A stretch of 64,000 nucleotides of DNA, taken from the NCBI GenBank assembly GCA_036567965.1, contig DATCTN010000006.1, positions 124,001 to 188,000 of the forward strand, written 5' to 3'. Under the pieces are notes generated by a model. It saw only the letters and a list, made by a program, of their open reading frames with translations, was not told the origin of the DNA and did no database searches. Positions within the stretch are counted from its first letter, which is position 1. Every line of letters begins with the position of its first letter. The translations under genes and the position numbers were made by a program. Below, in pieces: positions 439-10,525 of the stretch. The stretch comes from Candidatus Kryptoniota bacterium. Its GTDB lineage: Bacteria; Bacteroidota; Ignavibacteria; Kryptoniales; JAKASW01.

Positions 439-465
439 TAACAACTCCGAAAAATTTTCGCGTTC

Positions 466-494
466 AATTTAAACCTCGATGGAAGGAAAGTCAA
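466..494 (-). promoter_or_regulatory. Promoter of the nuo operon
   Basis: On the minus strand TTGACT (494-489) and TAAATT (471-466) are separated by exactly 17 bases and lie 28 bases upstream of the nuoA ATG. The same two hexamers and spacing recur before three other genes of this window (VOC, rubrerythrin, Lpp-like), which supports the call. Confidence 0.65.
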
Positions 495-883
495 GGAAGG
501 TCAGGCAGCAACAAAGATATTAAAGTTCCTGGATCGAGACTTACTCTAAACAATTTCGACGACACACAACCACATCGCTATCTATATCGGAATCCTTTGG
601 CAACATTTGAGGGCGGTAGTGACTCAACTTATCGCAATGCATCATGCTTAACTTGGATCATCATTTATTTCTAGAGCCCGAAGCACGCCCGTACCGGAAT
701 GTTCCTATCCAGTGTTCGGGGTGACACTAAGAATTGAAATTGAGTCCACCACTTTGAGGCCAGACATTTTCTCTTCCGATCATGACGTTTTGTAGTCATT
801 AGCATTGCGGAGAGTAACGACAACGAGAACTATTTTCAAGTAAGTACCTCTTTGTGTCGCGCAGCAAGGCTTCACACCAACCG
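495..883. other. Intergenic stretch without a recognisable gene
   Basis: About 390 bases separate the nuo promoter from the stop codon of the 353-residue island protein. Short open frames exist on both strands but none has a ribosome-binding site or a recognisable product. A weak inverted repeat ATGAC/GTCAT is near 780-800; no clear terminator was found for the island. Confidence 0.5.
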
Positions 884-1945
884 CTAAGACGATTTGAGAC
901 TGTTCGACTCTCTTAACTCTCTCAACGACGAAGAGAAGTTTTGAAAACCCACCTCGTGAACCATTCTGATTCCTTTGCTCATCCCAGTGACGTAGTAGCT
1001 GTCAGGAGTGGGATATTCAACGTGAGTATCTGGATGGATCATCTTATGAAGGTACAGTCCAACAGTCTGCATCTTACCTCCTGTCGCGGCGATGATTAGC
1101 CGTTCATGAAAGCCGTATACATCATAGACATTCTTGAGCACTTGAACCGTCTCACGATAATCCAAAGTGCTCACTGTCCTCGTCAACCTGCCTTCTTCAT
1201 CTAACGGATTGTCAACCGAATATTGCTCGATGAGCTTGGAGTGAATTTCCTGTGTTGCCAGCTCACGCCATTTGAAGTCTGCCCTCGCAGGTCGACCGTT
1301 CAGGAAGATGAGCCTGTGCGGCGTTAATGTTCCCAGCATATGTCTAACGAGTTGCTCATTGAAAGAAGTAAAAGCCACCATTGTGACGGGTTGACCCTGC
1401 ATCCTAATGCTGCTCAAGCATCTTGCTCTCAAGATTGATTCCGATCCGCGACTTGGAAACTTCGCGATTAGACCCATCTCGGATCTGGATTTTGTGTATT
1501 CGCTTTCTGAAGGGGCATATTCCTCAGCTTCTGAATAAATAATCCTTAAGGTCTTCTCATAAGGGGCAAGACCGCACAAAAGAACCAAAATTAGGAATTT
1601 AGTCATAGCGGTAATGTCAACGATAATCTCTTCAACATCTTGGAGGACGGCTGCCAATTTCTCCCCGATCGTGTCCTCTATACCCATCGGACTCAGCACA
1701 TCATATTTGATTTCACCGATTTGGGAACAGCCCAGACTTGAGAGAATATCCTTGACTTCGTTTACTCGATTCTTCCCTTTTGCATGTATATACCTAAACA
1801 TGATGGCACTGTTTAGAGGGATGGCATGATCCTTCGCCAGTTTAGGCCACCCGAGCGCGCGGTCCTCGAAGCCGTAAGCACCGATAAAAAGCCTGTTGAG
1901 TTTTGAAAAGTCCGTGGTAGCGGCAAGCAATGCTGGCAAATTCAT
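884..1945 (-). CDS. Two-lobed Rossmann/CARF-like protein of unknown function
   Basis: I do not recognise this 353-residue protein by name. It appears to be built from two similar halves. In each, a hydrophobic strand ends in a small polar loop (IIVDITAMTK at 107-116; LIIAATGGKM at 283-292), followed by a helix, a strand and a conserved Tyr-x(3-4)-Tyr region (YSEAEEY 137-143; YPTPDSYY 311-318). The first half also has GAYGFEDRALGW (22-33). This layout resembles CARF and other nucleotide-sensing Rossmann domains, where a T-G-G-T/K loop binds cyclic oligonucleotides. That is an inference, not a family match. It starts on the stop of the kinase gene (ATGA), so it is translationally coupled and probably the last gene of the three-gene operon. 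No nuclease, TM or HTH motif was seen. Confidence 0.75.
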   Translation of the reverse strand: MNLPALLAATTDFSKLNRLFIGAYGFEDRALGWPKLAKDHAIPLNSAIMFRYIHAKGKNRVNEVKDILSSLGCSQIGEIKYDVLSPMGIEDTIGEKLAAVLQDVEEIIVDITAMTKFLILVLLCGLAPYEKTLRIIYSEAEEYAPSESEYTKSRSEMGLIAKFPSRGSESILRARCLSSIRMQGQPVTMVAFTSFNEQLVRHMLGTLTPHRLIFLNGRPARADFKWRELATQEIHSKLIEQYSVDNPLDEEGRLTRTVSTLDYRETVQVLKNVYDVYGFHERLIIAATGGKMQTVGLYLHKMIHPDTHVEYPTPDSYYVTGMSKGIRMVHEVGFQNFSSSLRELRESNSLKSS

Positions 1946-4503
1946 TTTCTTTTCTTCTTCGACAATTGCAAACCAGCGATCTCAAGTTGAGGCGAGCGCT
2001 TCTTCATATCTTTGCCGGAATGTGCCTTCCCATGTGATCCTTTCCTCTTTTTGTGTCGTTTCCAAGCGTCGAAGAACTCATTAGGATTGACCAACAACTG
2101 CTGGAATTGTTGATTATTCAAATGGATGTGGTCGTGGCTAGAGAAGGTTAGCTTCGAAAAAGGAATCAGGACTCTGTTCAAATAAAGTCGTGGTGTCATC
2201 ATTCCTCTCACGCTTTTCCCGCGCCAGTCTTGCAAAAAGACGTGCCATCGAACAAGCCCTTCATAGAAAGGAATGGAAGCGGAGTTGAGATCGAACTTAT
2301 CAATTATTTCCAACCTAAATGCCTGTTTAGGATTCATCCTACCTTGATTTGAAACAAGTGGACCCTGAGTCATCTCGTACCTTGAGACGTTCACAAAAGC
2401 TTCCACTATGTTCTTCAACTGAACTCCGAATGGTTCACCTATCTTGGTAGAAGAAGGTCCCTTTTCCCAGAGTGTCGGGTCTCTGACAGACTCAATAAAA
2501 GTAAGGAGTTCGCCGCCAGCGGACCGAAAAACCCGATCCTGGATCTCAGAGTCTACTTTGGTCTTGCCCTCCCTTAGGTTTCCATTCGCCTCCCGAAGAA
2601 TATCAACCAACATTTGAATCATTATTCTGACATCACTCGACCACATGCCTATGAATGCCTCAAATCCATGGTAATGGATTGTCTTCTTCTTTCCCCTCTG
2701 GGTTGCTTCCCTCATAAGAAATGCCAACTCATTGTTTGAAATTGACATTTTCCCCAGTACGTTCCGGAGGCCCAAACTCTTTCCCTTCAGACTGGGGTGG
2801 CGATCGATTCGTGGCTTGAAGATCCTTTCAAGAAATTTCGCCTTCGATTGTGGATCCTGGTGAATGCTTTCGGTCGCAAGATCTATCAACTCAAAATCTT
2901 GATGTAGCTCGAGTGGCTTCCCCTGTAAACCCTCCCTTGAAAAACTATTGGATGATTCCGTTGAAACCTTGAAAAACAATTTGCTGCGACGTTTGAAGAT
3001 AATCGGATTCAATGCTTTCTGAACATCCTTAACAACTGTGGGAATAGTGTAATCGTCAAGGAACATATACATGGGCTTTTCTCCTACCCAACGAGCATTG
3101 GCCTCCAATTGTGCTTGAAGCAGGTCCAAGAAATCAAGTCTAGCAAGCGGCCAATTCTGTATTCCTTGATACTTTCCAAATTTTGTAATTCTGCATCGCT
3201 CTTTTTCATTTTCAATAAAAGCTCTCACGTGGTTCAGAACGTTCGCATTCTCCGGCAAAGTTGCGTACCTATTCCCGAAGCTTCTTGACATAAATAAATT
3301 CAGCCAGTCGTACTTCTCAATCTGTTCAATTCCGAACTGCCCCATAGTCTTCGTCACTTCAGATAGCCATGCTAAGTGGAAGTACTGAATCAACTGTTGC
3401 TCGATGGCTGGTCCAATTTTCTTCGGAAGCCAAGGGAAAGCCTCAACAAACTCCCGACAATTAAGATAGAATCCCACAAATTGATCTGAGCCTTCAACTT
3501 TGGATGGCTCTCCAATCACTTTGTCCATGAATACTGTAAGCCGTCTAAAGGACATTGTCTTTCCGCATCCGCGCGCACCGGTTAGCACAACGTTGTTTCT
3601 ACTCAATAAGTCTTCGGCGGCGGGAAACTCAGGAACAAACAGATCCTTCCATTCCTCGACTCTATAACCTAACGCTTCGGCAAATAGATAATCCCCAGGA
3701 GTTTTGATGTCTTCCTTCTTCGATGCCGCAGCCGATTCTCGATCGGCATCAATAGCGAGCGCTTCAAGTTCATTTAGAAGCAACTCAACATTACCCTCAT
3801 AGGCACCCTGCGTTGCATCCACTTCCAGCAGTCTCTTGTTGATAAAGCCGTACAATTTCTGCAGCATTAACTTATCTCTCGCATCGAGATCCGCCTGCTC
3901 CAACCTGCCCATAAGACTCGCCGTGATCGAGAACAATTGACGAAAATCGTCCTTCGGCACGACCTTATTGTGTGATCCACCGTATCCGAAGTCCGAGATC
4001 CAAATCGTCTTAGGGCTGTTGGGAATTCGCTGATCTGGGTCTCGAATAAGGATGTTCCCCTCATGGAGATCACCATGGCTGATACGAACTGCTTTACACG
4101 CGTGAAGAACCTTGAGAATTGTCTTTAGAATTTCTTCGACGAAAGCCAAATCAAGCGGCCAACTGGGCGCGGCCAGATATTCCCTTAGATTGAGCCCCGG
4201 GATATAGTCCCAAAGGATCCAATAAAAAGGCCTGTTGTTCTTGTCAAAGTTTGAACCATGCGCGTGGTAGGGAACGACATTGGGGACCCCCCTGAGTAGG
4301 ATGACCTTCTCCAGCTCTCGTTCCCAACCGTACCTTAGATCTCCTTCCGCAATCACCTTACACGCAAGCCGGTCGTTTTGCGTGAGGCCTTCTGCTAAAT
4401 AGATCTTTCCAATACCACCCCTATTGATGAACTTCGCTATCGTATAGGTCTCGTTGAGCTTAGTCCCAACGTAAGCGTCGTCGGCTGACTCAGTCTCAAT
4501 CAT
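1942..4503 (-). CDS. Ser/Thr protein kinase fused to a STAND/ORC-CDC6-like P-loop NTPase
   Basis: An 853-residue fusion. Residues about 18-250 form a protein kinase: glycine loop NRGGIGKIY (28-35), ATP lysine in ACKV (K49), catalytic loop HGDLHEGN (143-150, D145 and N150) and DFG (171-173). Residues about 270-850 carry a Walker A GARGCGKT (309-316) and a Walker B-like FLDDY (481-485), followed by a segment rich in predicted helices and a basic C-terminal tail. All the kinase catalytic residues checked are present, so it should be active. The arrangement suggests a sensor ATPase controlling phosphorylation. It starts six bases after the methyltransferase stop and overlaps the next gene by ATGA. 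A tripartite operon of this type is typical of defence loci; the exact target is unknown. Confidence 0.85.
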   Translation of the reverse strand: MIETESADDAYVGTKLNETYTIAKFINRGGIGKIYLAEGLTQNDRLACKVIAEGDLRYGWERELEKVILLRGVPNVVPYHAHGSNFDKNNRPFYWILWDYIPGLNLREYLAAPSWPLDLAFVEEILKTILKVLHACKAVRISHGDLHEGNILIRDPDQRIPNSPKTIWISDFGYGGSHNKVVPKDDFRQLFSITASLMGRLEQADLDARDKLMLQKLYGFINKRLLEVDATQGAYEGNVELLLNELEALAIDADRESAAASKKEDIKTPGDYLFAEALGYRVEEWKDLFVPEFPAAEDLLSRNNVVLTGARGCGKTMSFRRLTVFMDKVIGEPSKVEGSDQFVGFYLNCREFVEAFPWLPKKIGPAIEQQLIQYFHLAWLSEVTKTMGQFGIEQIEKYDWLNLFMSRSFGNRYATLPENANVLNHVRAFIENEKERCRITKFGKYQGIQNWPLARLDFLDLLQAQLEANARWVGEKPMYMFLDDYTIPTVVKDVQKALNPIIFKRRSKLFFKVSTESSNSFSREGLQGKPLELHQDFELIDLATESIHQDPQSKAKFLERIFKPRIDRHPSLKGKSLGLRNVLGKMSISNNELAFLMREATQRGKKKTIHYHGFEAFIGMWSSDVRIMIQMLVDILREANGNLREGKTKVDSEIQDRVFRSAGGELLTFIESVRDPTLWEKGPSSTKIGEPFGVQLKNIVEAFVNVSRYEMTQGPLVSNQGRMNPKQAFRLEIIDKFDLNSASIPFYEGLVRWHVFLQDWRGKSVRGMMTPRLYLNRVLIPFSKLTFSSHDHIHLNNQQFQQLLVNPNEFFDAWKRHKKRKGSHGKAHSGKDMKKRSPQLEIAGLQLSKKKRK

Positions 4504-4509
4504 CTTGAT

Positions 4510-5622
4510 CTACGCTTTCCGCAAGACAATTATTGTCTCAGTTTTGTTACCTGAATAGCGTCTTCTCACTCTTCGATCAGCTGGTATTTCATCAGTCTGC
4601 CGATAAACTAATCTGTACCCTGAAACATCCTTCTTAGCTATTTCTAGGACAAGATCAGGCAAAGTCATGCCATATGAGCGACTATAGGAGTCCCCCAGCA
4701 CTAAAATACAGTAGCCACGCGGTGTGATAATCTCGTGCCAATATGCCAGCGAGTGTTTCATCAAGGAGACAAACTCACCCTCACGCGGTGAAATCAAGTT
4801 ATCCAGTTCCTTCCAATCGGAGTACCCGACCAACCAGAGCCTGAGCCTGTTGTCACGCGCGTAATCCAATTGCCGCATGTAAGGCGGACTGGTAATAATT
4901 GCATTGACCTTACGACTCGGCGAAAAGCTTCGGGCATCTCCTAACTCACATTGTCTCGACAAGCTGAAGTCCAGTTCTGGAACCCGTTTAAGAGCACGCT
5001 CCACCTTCTTCCAAAGGCGTTCCATTACATGCCGCTGGTCATAAAGCTTAGGATATTTCGAGGGAGGATATTTTTTCTTTCTTAGGTACGGAACAGTGTG
5101 GCTGCTGGGAAAGGACAAAAAGCCTGGCCTTTGGTGGTGGAGAATCCCTAAGAGGCACGAGAGCAGAAAGTCATTCTTGTTCAGCGCTTTTCTCCATGCC
5201 ATAACTTCTCTCAGAGTTTCAGGATGGAAAAAAGACCTCACCCAAGTGGGAATTATTCGCAAATCTACGGAGAGTTTCATCTTATCGATTCTTCTTTCCA
5301 TCCTGTCAAGCGTTGAGTGAGCATCTTCCAGAGTGTCAGGCGGAAAGAGCTTCCCTCTCCCCAGTGTGACTGCGTACGGATTTCGATCTACTCCAACAAC
5401 GTTTCTTCGCTTCAACCAGCCCTCCAAAAGAACCGTACCAGATCCACAGAAGGGATCATAAAGCAGTTCTCCCACCTTAGTGAATTCTTCAATCAAACTT
5501 CCCGCCATCGACGACTTCATCTTTCCGATGTAGGGCGATAGCTGGTGTAAAGATGATTCTTTTGTGAGTGCGCTTCCGCTCCAGTCACTCAGTGTGGGTC
5601 TACGCGATCCGTCGTTTCTCAT
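4510..5622 (-). CDS. DNA methyltransferase (N6-adenine/N4-cytosine amino-methyltransferase type)
   Basis: A 370-residue AdoMet-dependent methyltransferase. Motif I DPFCGSGT is at 56-63 and the catalytic motif IV TSPPY at 244-248, the order of amino-MTases in which the AdoMet motif precedes the catalytic one. The N-terminal HQLSPYIGKMKSSM stretch resembles the HPYPxK-type segment upstream of motif I in TRM11-like DNA methylases. The product could in principle act on RNA, but a DNA target fits the context better. It is the first gene of the island and the only modification enzyme; no adjacent restriction endonuclease is visible. The start at 5622 lacks an obvious ribosome-binding site, and an inverted repeat lies about 80 bases upstream. 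Confidence 0.85.
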   Translation of the reverse strand: MRNDGSRRPTLSDWSGSALTKESSLHQLSPYIGKMKSSMAGSLIEEFTKVGELLYDPFCGSGTVLLEGWLKRRNVVGVDRNPYAVTLGRGKLFPPDTLEDAHSTLDRMERRIDKMKLSVDLRIIPTWVRSFFHPETLREVMAWRKALNKNDFLLSCLLGILHHQRPGFLSFPSSHTVPYLRKKKYPPSKYPKLYDQRHVMERLWKKVERALKRVPELDFSLSRQCELGDARSFSPSRKVNAIITSPPYMRQLDYARDNRLRLWLVGYSDWKELDNLISPREGEFVSLMKHSLAYWHEIITPRGYCILVLGDSYSRSYGMTLPDLVLEIAKKDVSGYRLVYRQTDEIPADRRVRRRYSGNKTETIIVLRKA

Positions 5623-5703
5623 AAGTCACTTTATAAGTTTCCTCATTGGCTTCATCTCTCTTTCGAGGCGATTCGCTTAGACGTATCCGGTAAATGTAAA
5701 CGT

Positions 5704-5725
5704 GTGCTTAGTTCTCACTAAACAC
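5704..5725. promoter_or_regulatory. Inverted repeat upstream of the methyltransferase operon, possible operator
   Basis: TTAGT (5708-5712) and ACTAA (5717-5721) are separated by four bases and extended by GTG (5704-5706) and CAC (5723-5725) with one mismatch. It lies 82 bases upstream of the first island gene, where an operator would be expected. No regulator gene is in the island. Confidence 0.35.
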
Positions 5726-6172
5726 AAAGAAGAACGTATGATTCGAAAAATATCACAGCAAGTGTGTCCGCTGAGGATTGATGATGGACAGCGCGGCGTT
5801 CCCTGGACAAGCTCGCGACAGTCCTGTTAGCACCCTAATAAAATGCCTACTTCCGGCTTGCCGCTCATAGTCGCCGCAGACACCAACGCCCGCAGAACCG
5901 CTCTAATTTCATAAGAAAAGAAGAATGATGCAATGTGGCCCTTTGCAGTTGATTTTGCGCATTCTCGATTGATATGGAGCGCTTGATAACTTTCGATTGG
6001 AGATCGCCCTGCAAATGCCCGAGTGCTTTGTATAGCCTCCATCGTGCAATTGCTGTCAAGCAAGATGCAATGCCCCGCGCTCAGAATACATTGATGCGCC
6101 TTGCCTCGAGAATTCTGCCATCTTGTCCTCCTATCCTTTTTCTTTCTCAACTCCCACACCTGCACTCCCCGT

Positions 6173-6209
6173 CATGCCCGCATGCTTGTAGCGGGCAGCT
6201 CGCGCCCGC
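6173..6209. repeat. REP-like palindromic element, copy 1
   Basis: CATGCCCGCATGC (6173-6185) starts a set of alternative hairpins: GCCCGC (6176-6181) pairs with GCGGGC (6191-6196), which can also pair with GCCCGC (6204-6209). The 13-base core recurs at 6288-6300. There is no U-run, so it is not a simple terminator. Confidence 0.5.
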
Positions 6210-6287
6210 CCCTCGAGATTCCCGCTAATTACGTTCCGGAATGACTGATGTTGGAAAAAAGCCTTGCGCTTCTATCTCTTCACTTGC

Positions 6288-6300
6288 CATGCCCGCATGC
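6288..6300. repeat. REP-like element, copy 2 (core only)
   Basis: An exact second copy of the 13-base CATGCCCGCATGC core, 115 bases from the first and about 50 bases past the trpB stop. The flanking sequence is only partly similar to copy 1. Confidence 0.45.
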
Positions 6301-6347
6301 ACTCAGCGGACATCTCCGAAGAGTTTCAGAGACTTCGGTGCGCGTTG

Positions 6348-7583
6348 CTATCCGTCAAGCTTCAATCTCTTCGCCACGCTGTACATATCTTTGTCACCTC
6401 TACCTGAAAGATTGATCAGTACATCTTTTCCTTTCCCTTCACCTCGAGCGAGCTTGCAGGCGTAAGCAACCGCGTGCGCGGATTCCAGCGCAGGTATTAT
6501 TCCCTCGAGTTGAGAGAGCTTCTTGAACGAGTCGAGTGCTTCATCATCTGTCACGGATTCGTATTTCACCAATCCGGAGTCCTTCAGGTAAGAATGCTCC
6601 GGCCCGACTCCGGGATAGTCGAGTCCGGCTGAAATCGAGTACGCGTTCAGGACATTGCCATTTTCATCCTGCAAAAGGTATTGCATCGAGCCATGAAGCA
6701 CGCCGGGCTTGCCCAGCGAGAGCGACGCGGCAGTCTTTCCGGTATCCAGTCCTTCGCCTGCGGCCTCCACACCGACAAGTCTCACCGACGGAATATCCCT
6801 GACGAAATCATAAAAAATACCTATCGAGTTGCTGCCACCACCGACACATGCAATCACAAAGTCCGGCAATTTGCCGTATGTCTCTCTGAACTGTTTCTTC
6901 GATTCGCGGCCTATCACAGTCTGAAAGTGTCTGACCAATTTCGGATAGGGATGCATACCGACGACCGAGCCGATTATATAAAACGTGTCGCGGACATTTG
7001 TAACCCAGTCTCGAATGGCTTCACTCGTCGCTTCTTTGAGGGTCTTCGTACCGATGGTGACCGGGACGACTTCCGCACCGAGTAATCTCATCTTAAATAC
7101 ATTCGGCTCCTGACGGTGCATGTCCTCTTCGCCCATATAGACGATGCAGTTTAGTCCAAGCAGCGCGCAGACCGTTGCGGTCGCCACTCCATGCTGTCCT
7201 GCCCCCGTTTCCGCGATTATCCTTTTCTTACCGAGCTTTTTCGCGAGGAGAGCCTGACCGATCGTGTTGTTGATCTTGTGCGCGCCTGTATGAAGAAGGT
7301 CTTCGCGCTTCAGATAAAATCTCGACCCGTATTTCGCACTCATGCGTTCCGCAAAATAAATGGGAGTCGGTCTCCCCGCGTAGTTCTGAAGGAGGTAGTT
7401 ATACTCCTTGTCGAAATCCGGATCATTCTTAAGCGATTCGAAAGCTTCGTCCAGTTCTGCCGCGGCCTTCACGAGTGTCTCGGGCACAAATGAGCCACCA
7501 TAAATACCAAAGTGTCCCGCGGAATCGGGCAGCTTATAATATTCGTCTATCTTTTTCTTAAGATCTTCCATCTGATTTCCCAT
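6348..7583 (-). CDS. trpB: Tryptophan synthase beta chain
   Basis: PLP enzyme joining indole and serine to give tryptophan, about 411 residues. The PLP lysine sits in HTGAHKINN near residue 103; the phosphate-binding glycine loop GGGSNSIG and the LESAHA segment follow in the right places. The substrate-binding ETGAGQHG motif is intact. The frame opens with TTG at 7589, but ATG at 7583 (Met-Gly-Asn-Gln) is the likelier start; neither has a strong ribosome-binding site. It is the last gene of the aroA-trpB operon. trpA, its usual partner, is not in the window. Confidence 0.96.
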
Positions 7584-8450: not shown

Positions 8451-9248
8451 TCAACGGCTCCTCCCGCCCGTGAATCGCTTCACCTCTGCCACCCTGTCGG
8501 CTGCCCTCATGAAGTGTTCACCTATCAATACCGCATGATAGCCCATATCGGCGGCAGCACTGAGTTCTTCCGGATCATTTATGCCGCTTTCGCTCACGCT
8601 GACAACGTCTTTCGGAATATTGCGTCCGAGTCTCTCGGAGACGTCACGTGAGACTTCAAATGTCGTGAGGTTTCTGTTGTTCACACCGATGGTGTCTGCT
8701 CCGGCTGAGATTGCGGTGTCCAGCTCACCCATATCATGCACTTCAACAAGCGCTCCGAGCGAGCTGCCTTTCGCAATCCGGATGAATTTCTTCAATCTAT
8801 CCGCGCTTAAAGCCGCTGCAATAAACAGTACCGCATCGGCACCGATCAACAGTGATTCATGAATCTGGTACTCATCGATGATAAAGTCTTTCCTCAGGAC
8901 AGGAATCTTCGGTACCGCATCGCGTACGCCCTGCAGATCCTTAGTTGATCCGCTGAAAAAGTTATTCTCCGTCAGGACAGAGACTGCTGAGGCGCCTCCG
9001 GCCTCATAGTCTTTAGCTATTGCTACCGGGTCAATGCTGGCAGCGATGATGCCCTTCGACGGGGACGCACGTTTTATTTCAGCAATAATCTTCACACGGC
9101 CGCCGGTCTCCCTGGAGATACACTTCCTGAAATCATTCTTAGGCCTAATTTCGGATACCAGACTCATCAGGTCGCCGGGAGTAAGAACGCCTTTCGATTC
9201 CTCGACGTTGATCCTTTTCTGGCGAACGATCGTCTCCAGGAAATTCAA
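8451..9248 (-). CDS. trpC: Indole-3-glycerol phosphate synthase
   Basis: TIM-barrel enzyme closing the indole ring. The 265 residues carry the family signature AEIKRASPSKG near residue 57 (catalytic lysine), VLRKDFIIDEYQ, GVNNRNL and SESGI, in the usual order. The start is a TTG at 9248, which overlaps the stop of the corC-like gene as TTGA, so translation is probably coupled. The beginning MNFLETIVRQK matches the usual start of TrpC, and no better initiation codon is nearby. Confidence 0.95.
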   Translation of the reverse strand: MNFLETIVRQKRINVEESKGVLTPGDLMSLVSEIRPKNDFRKCISRETGGRVKIIAEIKRASPSKGIIAASIDPVAIAKDYEAGGASAVSVLTENNFFSGSTKDLQGVRDAVPKIPVLRKDFIIDEYQIHESLLIGADAVLFIAAALSADRLKKFIRIAKGSSLGALVEVHDMGELDTAISAGADTIGVNNRNLTTFEVSRDVSERLGRNIPKDVVSVSESGINDPEELSAAADMGYHAVLIGEHFMRAADRVAEVKRFTGGRSR

Positions 9249-10525
9249 TGCCTCTTCTTCCCTTTCTTTGATTGCGGTGGACGGATCGCTTTCCTTCCAA
9301 CTGTAGGCACCTTCTTACGTGGGTGTTCCGTTTTCTTTATGGTGACCGCCTCACTATTTTTCGTTCGGACCGCTGCACCCGGATAAGGCGCCTCAGCCGA
9401 TACACCTTTTTTTATGCGATCATTCACCTGGAAGGGGTGTTCTCTGTAAGAAACCTTGAGCCGTCTAATCCTATGCTTAAACAATTCCTCGACATGGAAC
9501 AGCATTTCATCATGGTTAAAAACCTCGCCTTCTTGCGGGAGACGGCCGGCAAGTTTTTGCACGAATCCAGCCATCGTATCATAGTCTTCACCCTGAGGCA
9601 CCTCGCATCCGAGAAGCTCATTGAACCTGCTGACGGTCATCGAACCGGAAAAATGGATGTCTCCGTTTTCGTCCTTCACTATTTCGGATAACGACTCGTC
9701 ATACTCATCCTGAATTTCACCGACAATCTCCTCCAGAACATCTTCCAGAGTCACGATGCCCTCGGTGCCGCCGAACTCGTCCACGACCACTGCGAGGTGG
9801 ACTTTGTTCTTCTGCATGTCACGAAGCAGCTGGCTTATCTTCTTAGATTCCGGAACGTAATAAGGACTTCTCACGATGTCCTGAAGAACGATGACTCCGC
9901 CATCTTCGACCATCGTCAATAAGTCTTTCGCGTAGATCACACCGACAACATTATCAACAGACCCGCGGTAGACCGGGAGGCGCGAGAAACCTTCCTCGAT
10001 TACTTTTCTCAAGAGCGGTCTCGGATCCTCGTCGATGTTGATTGCGACAATGTCTCCTCTGGGCACCATGACTTCCCTGACTATCTTGTCGTTAAATTTC
10101 AGAACGCTCTCGAGAAGTTCTCTTTCGAGGACGTCTATTTCACCGCTTTTGGCAGATCTCTCGAGAATTTGTTCTATAATTTCAGACCTGTCTCCGTCTT
10201 TTCCCGATGGCGCAAACATCTTTTCGATGCTGAGGATAAAGGCCGAGGTCTTTGGAACCGCGCTCAACGCGTAACCGACGCCTAGAGACGCGCAGAAGGT
10301 CAGAGCAAATGTGGCGGAGGCAAAAGTGAAACTTATTCGTAGCATGGTTTCCGCGAGTCCTTCTAGGAGAAATACGGAAGCCAGGGTAGATATAATCACC
10401 GAGCAGACCAAGAAGAGGAAGAGGTTTTTCTTGGCAAGCTTTACGGCGTCGAAGGAAAACACCAGCCCCCACGAAAGTGATGCAGCAACAAACAGCACCA
10501 CAAAGATCAGGTAACTCCCGATCAT
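9245..10525 (-). CDS. CorC/HlyC-type membrane protein with CBS pair
   Basis: A 426-residue membrane protein of the CNNM/CorC family, thought to act in divalent-cation transport or efflux. Three hydrophobic segments (about 3-22, 34-57 and 62-88) are followed by two CBS domains (about 150-270; REVMVPRGDIVAI, GFSRLPVYRG, VVVDEFGGTEGIVTLEDVLEEIVGEI in separate pieces) and a CorC_HlyC C-terminal domain. A basic Lys/Arg-rich tail of about 60 residues is unusual. It sits between trpD and trpC with stop-start overlaps on both sides, so it is co-translated with tryptophan genes despite no obvious pathway link. Confidence 0.88.
   Translation of the reverse strand: MIGSYLIFVVLFVAASLSWGLVFSFDAVKLAKKNLFLFLVCSVIISTLASVFLLEGLAETMLRISFTFASATFALTFCASLGVGYALSAVPKTSAFILSIEKMFAPSGKDGDRSEIIEQILERSAKSGEIDVLERELLESVLKFNDKIVREVMVPRGDIVAINIDEDPRPLLRKVIEEGFSRLPVYRGSVDNVVGVIYAKDLLTMVEDGGVIVLQDIVRSPYYVPESKKISQLLRDMQKNKVHLAVVVDEFGGTEGIVTLEDVLEEIVGEIQDEYDESLSEIVKDENGDIHFSGSMTVSRFNELLGCEVPQGEDYDTMAGFVQKLAGRLPQEGEVFNHDEMLFHVEELFKHRIRRLKVSYREHPFQVNDRIKKGVSAEAPYPGAAVRTKNSEAVTIKKTEHPRKKVPTVGRKAIRPPQSKKGKKRH

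Follow-up and report, generated by a model that had tools for sequence, protein, structure and literature searches.

A mobile cassette of a DNA methyltransferase, a kinase-ATPase and a tandem CARF protein as a candidate antiviral system

Why would one operon combine a CARF protein with a DNA methyltransferase (MTase) and a fusion of protein kinase and ATPase? The question is raised by three ORFs in a 64,000-nucleotide stretch of a Candidatus Kryptoniota genome (contig DATCTN010000006.1; the whole stretch is called the window below), all of them on the minus strand and transcribed from position 5622 to position 884 (Table 1). The MTase gene is separated from the kinase-ATPase gene by a gap of 6 bp, and an ATGA overlap joins the latter to the CARF gene. 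These junctions and the extent of 884-5622 were correct in the initial annotation, and the motifs that it quoted are all present: DPFCGSGT and TSPPY in the MTase, HGDLHEGN and DFG in the kinase, and GARGCGKTM and FLDDY in the ATPase. The operon goes beyond chance because its products match Pfam and PADLOC families and because the same gene order is repeated in other phyla. No RNA families were found in the window. Judged from the sequences, the three genes most likely form an uncharacterized antiviral system. Kinase-CARF proteins have been on record since 2014 with no job assigned to them, and a compact mobile operon with a DNA MTase, consisting of three genes of clonable size with clear catalytic residues, provides a setting in which such a job can be tested.

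Table 1. Features of the cassette and of the interval that holds it (window coordinates)
Feature	Position	Strand	Basis
Insertion interval holding the cassette, between nuoA and trpB	445..6347	.	trpB-nuoA adjacency in six genus-mates
MTase gene (cassette gene 1), 370 aa	4510..5622	-	Pfam, PADLOC, homologue alignment
MTase motif I DPFCGSGT, residues 56-63	5434..5457	-	Sequence, homologue alignment
MTase motif IV TSPPY, residues 244-248	4879..4893	-	SPPY invariant in 15 homologues
Ser/Thr kinase + ORC/CDC6-like AAA+ ATPase fusion gene, 853 aa	1942..4503	-	Pfam, PADLOC, alignment, structure model
Kinase domain, about residues 14-257	3733..4464	-	Pkinase 2.3e-8; model against Stk1/PknA/PknB, Z 18-19
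Kinase catalytic loop HGDLHEGN, residues 143-150	4054..4077	-	H143, D145, L146, H147, N150 invariant in 19 homologues
Walker A GARGCGKTM, residues 309-317	3553..3579	-	RGCGKTM invariant in 19 homologues
Walker B FLDDY, residues 481-485	3049..3063	-	D483, D484 invariant in 19 homologues
CARF6 protein gene, 353 aa, two CARF lobes	884..1945	-	PADLOC, structure model
First CARF lobe, about residues 14-157, with GFEDR (25-29) and DITAMTK (110-116)	1475..1906	-	Homologue alignment
Second CARF lobe, about residues 185-336, with GGKMQT (289-294)	938..1393	-	Homologue alignment

The first gene product matches Pfam N6_N4_Mtase (3.5e-12) and the PADLOC MTase_II models (1.7e-23). It is an amino-MTase of the alpha order, with motif I ahead of motif IV and both motifs intact, and its TSPPY presumably signals specificity for N4-cytosine. 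The match to MTase_II is a likeness to Type II restriction-modification, but the cassette lacks a restriction endonuclease.

In the second product Pfam recognizes an ORC-CDC6-like domain (PF24389, 4e-26) as well as the kinase. The residues K49, E63, D145, N150 and D171 of the kinase are invariant across the 19 aligned homologues, and the kinase dominates the match list of the structure model, with Stk1, PknA and PknB as its matches. The initial annotation had mentioned STAND-type ATPases in connection with the NTPase; nSTAND3 was reached only at an E-value of 0.12, and by its best Pfam match this part of the protein is an ORC/CDC6-like AAA+ ATPase. The fusion also matches the PADLOC model CARF_STK_AAA (PDLC01925) at 2e-17, the best stretch covering residues 304-661. 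An N-terminal Zn ribbon is absent from the window protein, and in the homologue alignment CxxC pairs occur only in loci L055, L057 and L058.

The third product matches the PADLOC model CARF6 (PDLC01917) at 1.1e-13. Its AlphaFold2 model is confident (pLDDT 89.8, pTM 0.92), and the top VIA-align match is Can1 over both lobes (Z 14.8, rmsd 3.5, 238 residues), followed by Csm6, Csa3, Can2 and Card1. Foldseek gave low TM-scores and mixed top rows and is unclear when taken alone, so the assignment rests on VIA-align, PADLOC and the alignment jointly. A sequence search of the PDB gave no match. Among 20 homologues G25, F26, E27, R29, D110 and E139 of the first lobe are invariant, as are F192, R227 and T260 of the second, where K291 and Q293 are kept in 95%; conservation in the family is highest in the GFEDR and DITAMTK stretches of the first lobe and in the GSKMQT stretch of the second. 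What had been described as a CARF-like protein of two lobes can thus be called a genuine tandem CARF protein. No nuclease or other effector domain was recognized in it, and Pfam, PADLOC and NCBIfam show no nuclease domain in either this protein or the kinase-ATPase. It is like Can1 in forming a tandem CARF pseudo-dimer and unlike Can1 in having no nuclease domain and in belonging to a genome without a Cas10 match. The CARF protein of L055 (10596-11615) diverges from its relatives at the C-terminus, where GSKMQT is missing, and is possibly a decayed copy.

The cassette has the marks of an insertion. In the six genus-mates examined trpB and nuoA are neighbors, 0.2-1 kb apart and with no cassette, and in the window the cassette lies between them. 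None of the 12 other genomes of the genus has the kinase-ATPase, and the CARF protein has a match in only one other of the 296 genomes that sample the phylum. The GC content of the cassette is 46.4%, against 50.5 +/- 1.0% in windows of equal size elsewhere. The two flanks of the insertion have no 12-base repeat in common. Of the homologous cassettes, that of L059 lies among phage tail genes, in a prophage tail region; L050 has a serine recombinase and PD-Lambda-4 close by, L056 has a ParB gene nearby, and L037 is plasmid-borne. A cassette that is rare, patchy, inserted and carried by mobile elements lends indirect support to the role in phage defense that the initial annotation had proposed. 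A separate observation in the window concerns 9245-10525, where a membrane protein resembling the CorC/hemolysin family, as judged by eye, is found inside the trp run (trpD, trpC, trpF, trpB) and its gene overlaps the ends of its trp neighbors.

Relatives elsewhere were sought with an alignment of the ATPase parts only, which found 17 genome loci and 3 loci on viral contigs. Together with the window, genome G078 and a Bradyrhizobium plasmid these make 22 distinct loci, L061 being apparently the same as L057 and counted once; L037 and L050 are near-identical, which lowers the number of independent cases by one. A scan of genome contigs with the window kinase-ATPase as a single protein gave no match, phage records gave none, and the CARF alignment is too divergent to serve as a query against viral contigs. 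Going by record titles, the carriers come from about 10 phyla, and the CARF gene adjoins the kinase-ATPase gene or is fused to it in every one of the 22 loci, the fusions being those of G078, L053 and L054. Leaving aside L044, which ends at a contig edge, 21 loci can be assessed for the MTase, and 17 of them have a homologous one adjacent on the upstream side. The four others have no homologous MTase: L053 has a different MTase, of beta type, whose gene overlaps the fused gene at its 3' end; L057 (7945-12771) and L058 (6423-11140), which represent a divergent branch with Zn-ribbon kinase-ATPase and CARF, carry the Druantia protein DruA in place of the MTase, with differing gene orders; and L055 has neither. 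The gene order of the window recurs in other phyla, with genes tightly spaced or overlapping. Failure of the three to travel together had been named at the outset as grounds for giving up the idea of a system; travel together they do, CARF without exception and the MTase in most cases. The B. quebecense locus L037 was considered as a four-gene form and rejected as a separate organization. In its relative L050, which is 95-97% identical, a single ORF encodes both kinase and ATPase, and the simpler view of L037 is that of a copy with its frame disrupted between the two. A thymidylate synthase gene adjoins the CARF gene in four loci (L037, 10908-11831; L050, 10741-11664; L052, 12025-13062; L051, 6066-6857), three of these genes being thyX and the remaining one a thyA that is encoded on the opposite strand.

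The partners do not share one past equally. Pairwise distances of kinase, ATPase and CARF correlate at r 0.94-0.96 over 15 loci, and on this sequence evidence the three have one common history; the MTase distances correlate with theirs at only 0.33-0.39 over the same number of loci. The kinase-ATPases of L049 and L059 are 85% identical over the whole protein, their MTases 42%. The MTase tree rejects an eight-member clade of kinase-ATPases with an AU p of 6.7e-19 and the L049-L059 pair at 4.8e-6; the CARF tree keeps the clade, though its support there is 93/90. Some rows are long-branched (L054, L047). A history so unlike that of its partners makes the MTase a swappable module, and perhaps a less integral one than had been assumed. 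Its exchange need not bring a new recognition site, since the central HHQRPGFLS region is as well conserved between groups as the region of motif I (0.60 versus 0.55).

Much of the core has been seen before. Proteins with Zn ribbon, STYK, AAA+, CARF and wHTH parts were described in 2014 by Makarova et al. (PMC4012209), and CARF6--CARF_STK_AAA in PADLOC (PDLC01925) is like the present core in uniting a kinase, CARF6 and an AAA+ domain whose P-loop contains arginine; the kinase-ATPase of L058 matches that model at 7.7e-60. The kinase-AAA-CARF family is already known, and the window represents a branch of it without the Zn ribbon described for it. Unlike the PADLOC unit, the form in the window divides these parts between two genes and is preceded by an MTase; among the present loci, the Zn-ribbon branch carries DruA or neither. 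The initial annotation knew no named system with this combination, which has to be modified for the kinase-ATPase-CARF part and for the MTase-linked operon of three genes agrees with the literature searched, where no description was found; the 2020 CARF census lies beyond that literature, and an earlier mention is possible. The same literature yielded no description of a CARF-kinase system.

A closer functional parallel is offered by Pgl, where phage resistance involves an ATPase and a kinase together with an MTase (PMC4365076); the ATPases of BREX belong to the ORC/Cdc6 clade (PMC12839542). The cassette is like Pgl (BREX type 2) in bringing together an MTase, a protein kinase and an ATPase of that clade; it is unlike Pgl in being much smaller and in having tandem CARF instead of PglZ, a core Pgl/BREX gene. 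Family searches gave no match to PglX or PglW. The sole PglZ-domain match in the genome of the window is a 529-aa frame on another contig, and 13 of the 18 carrier genomes have none. MADS, through its mad6 kinase, and PD-T4-6 resemble the cassette in the kinase domain only (PADLOC, 4.1e-14 and 4.6e-12), their other parts being unlike. CBASS was set aside, as SMODS-type CD-NTases (PF18144) have no match in the genome of the window; there was none in G078 either, and matches exceeded the cut-off in 2 of the 18 carriers.

With Pgl as the nearest functional precedent and the BREX ATPases being ORC/Cdc6-like, we favor a methylation-linked system with a kinase as output and CARF as gate. Our tentative reading, which we consider quite possible, is of a mobile, methylation-linked antiviral cassette resembling Pgl, with CARF in the place of PglZ. 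The MTase would mark host DNA. The ORC/CDC6-like ATPase, together with the kinase joined to it, would assemble with the tandem CARF protein and detect invading DNA, either because that DNA is unmodified or because it is engaged by the MTase. Binding of a nucleotide-type ligand by the tandem CARF would license or reset the complex, and the kinase would then phosphorylate proteins of the host or of the system and so arrest the infection. The kinase is proposed as output because no nuclease or other toxin domain is recognized in the cassette. The Pgl-like reading draws support from the domains and their intact motifs, the confident tandem CARF model with its match to Can1, the conserved linkage, the fusions, the shared history of the core, the insertion, the rarity, the low GC content and the mobile or defense-related surroundings, and also from the independent recruitment of the beta-type MTase in L053. 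Against it we count the missing PglZ, the lack of a recognized ligand source for CARF, the differing history of the MTase and the 4 of 21 loci that have no homologous MTase.

The main rival makes CARF, and not methylation status, the trigger of defense. Infection would yield a ligand of nucleotide or RNA-end type, produced by other components of the cell, whose binding by CARF activates the kinase-ATPase, the MTase being accessory. CARF is indeed the constant partner (22/22), the MTase being exchanged or replaced by DruA, and for CARF domains elsewhere a proposed ligand is RNA fragments that end in a cyclic phosphate (PMC11090510). However, the cassette encodes no ligand synthase, the genome of the window has no Cas10 or SMODS match and most loci retain the homologous MTase; we regard this alternative as possible but doubtful. 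A separate alternative, in which CARF responds to cyclic oligoadenylate made by Cas10 and the cassette is an accessory of type III CRISPR, would suit the structural matches to Can1, Csm6, Csa3 and Can2, and Cas10-family matches do exceed the cut-off in 4 of the 18 carrier genomes, although some may be other palm-domain proteins since the family model also matches in E. coli. It is nevertheless very unlikely, because Cas10 has no match in the genome of the window or in G078 and none over the cut-off in the other 14 of the 18 carriers.

Two further alternatives question whether there is a defense system here or whether it has three parts. A regulatory function is open to kinases and to tandem CARF proteins that lack a nuclease domain, and the copy in the window stands alone among housekeeping genes, as a signaling or regulatory operon unrelated to defense might. 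But the cassette is rare, patchy and inserted, copies of it have prophage tail genes, serine recombinases or PD-Lambda-4 for neighbors, and relatives of its MTase head other defense-like cassettes, which leaves a purely regulatory role rather improbable. Less probable again is that kinase-ATPase and CARF are the whole system and the MTase a separate neighbor at the same mobile site. The incongruent MTase tree would fit, as would L049, where a GmrSD-like ORF and an ORF of HEPN-like size sit between the MTase and kinase genes (4618-7550), a pair similar to that in L083 (6938-9830), where a relative of the MTase precedes a GmrSD_N (DUF262) protein and a HEPN-like protein. Tight spacing or overlap, the presence of a homologous MTase at 17 of 21 loci and the second MTase type recruited in L053 speak against it.

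It is conceivable, though we would not rate it above the CARF-triggered alternative, that the cassette is a self-contained form of immunity, independent of Cas10 and CD-NTases, in which self-recognition by methylation and nucleotide sensing by CARF converge on a kinase effector, with an exchangeable MTase or DruA module on a fixed kinase-ATPase-CARF core. If true, CARF signaling, so far mostly tied to type III CRISPR, would be linked to methylation-based immunity of the Pgl kind, and the cassette would pair a constant signaling core with DNA-modifying parts that can be exchanged.

Three-gene cassettes of another make, MTase-ParA-SIR2, likewise begin with a relative of the MTase; they lie on prophage contigs (L078, 6938-9989; L079; L080) and in a Salmonella record (L038, 8965-11979). 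Their ParA-like protein is an ATPase and their SIR2 protein resembles ThsA, LmuA and Dsr, so that the set looks like a further MTase-linked defense cassette.
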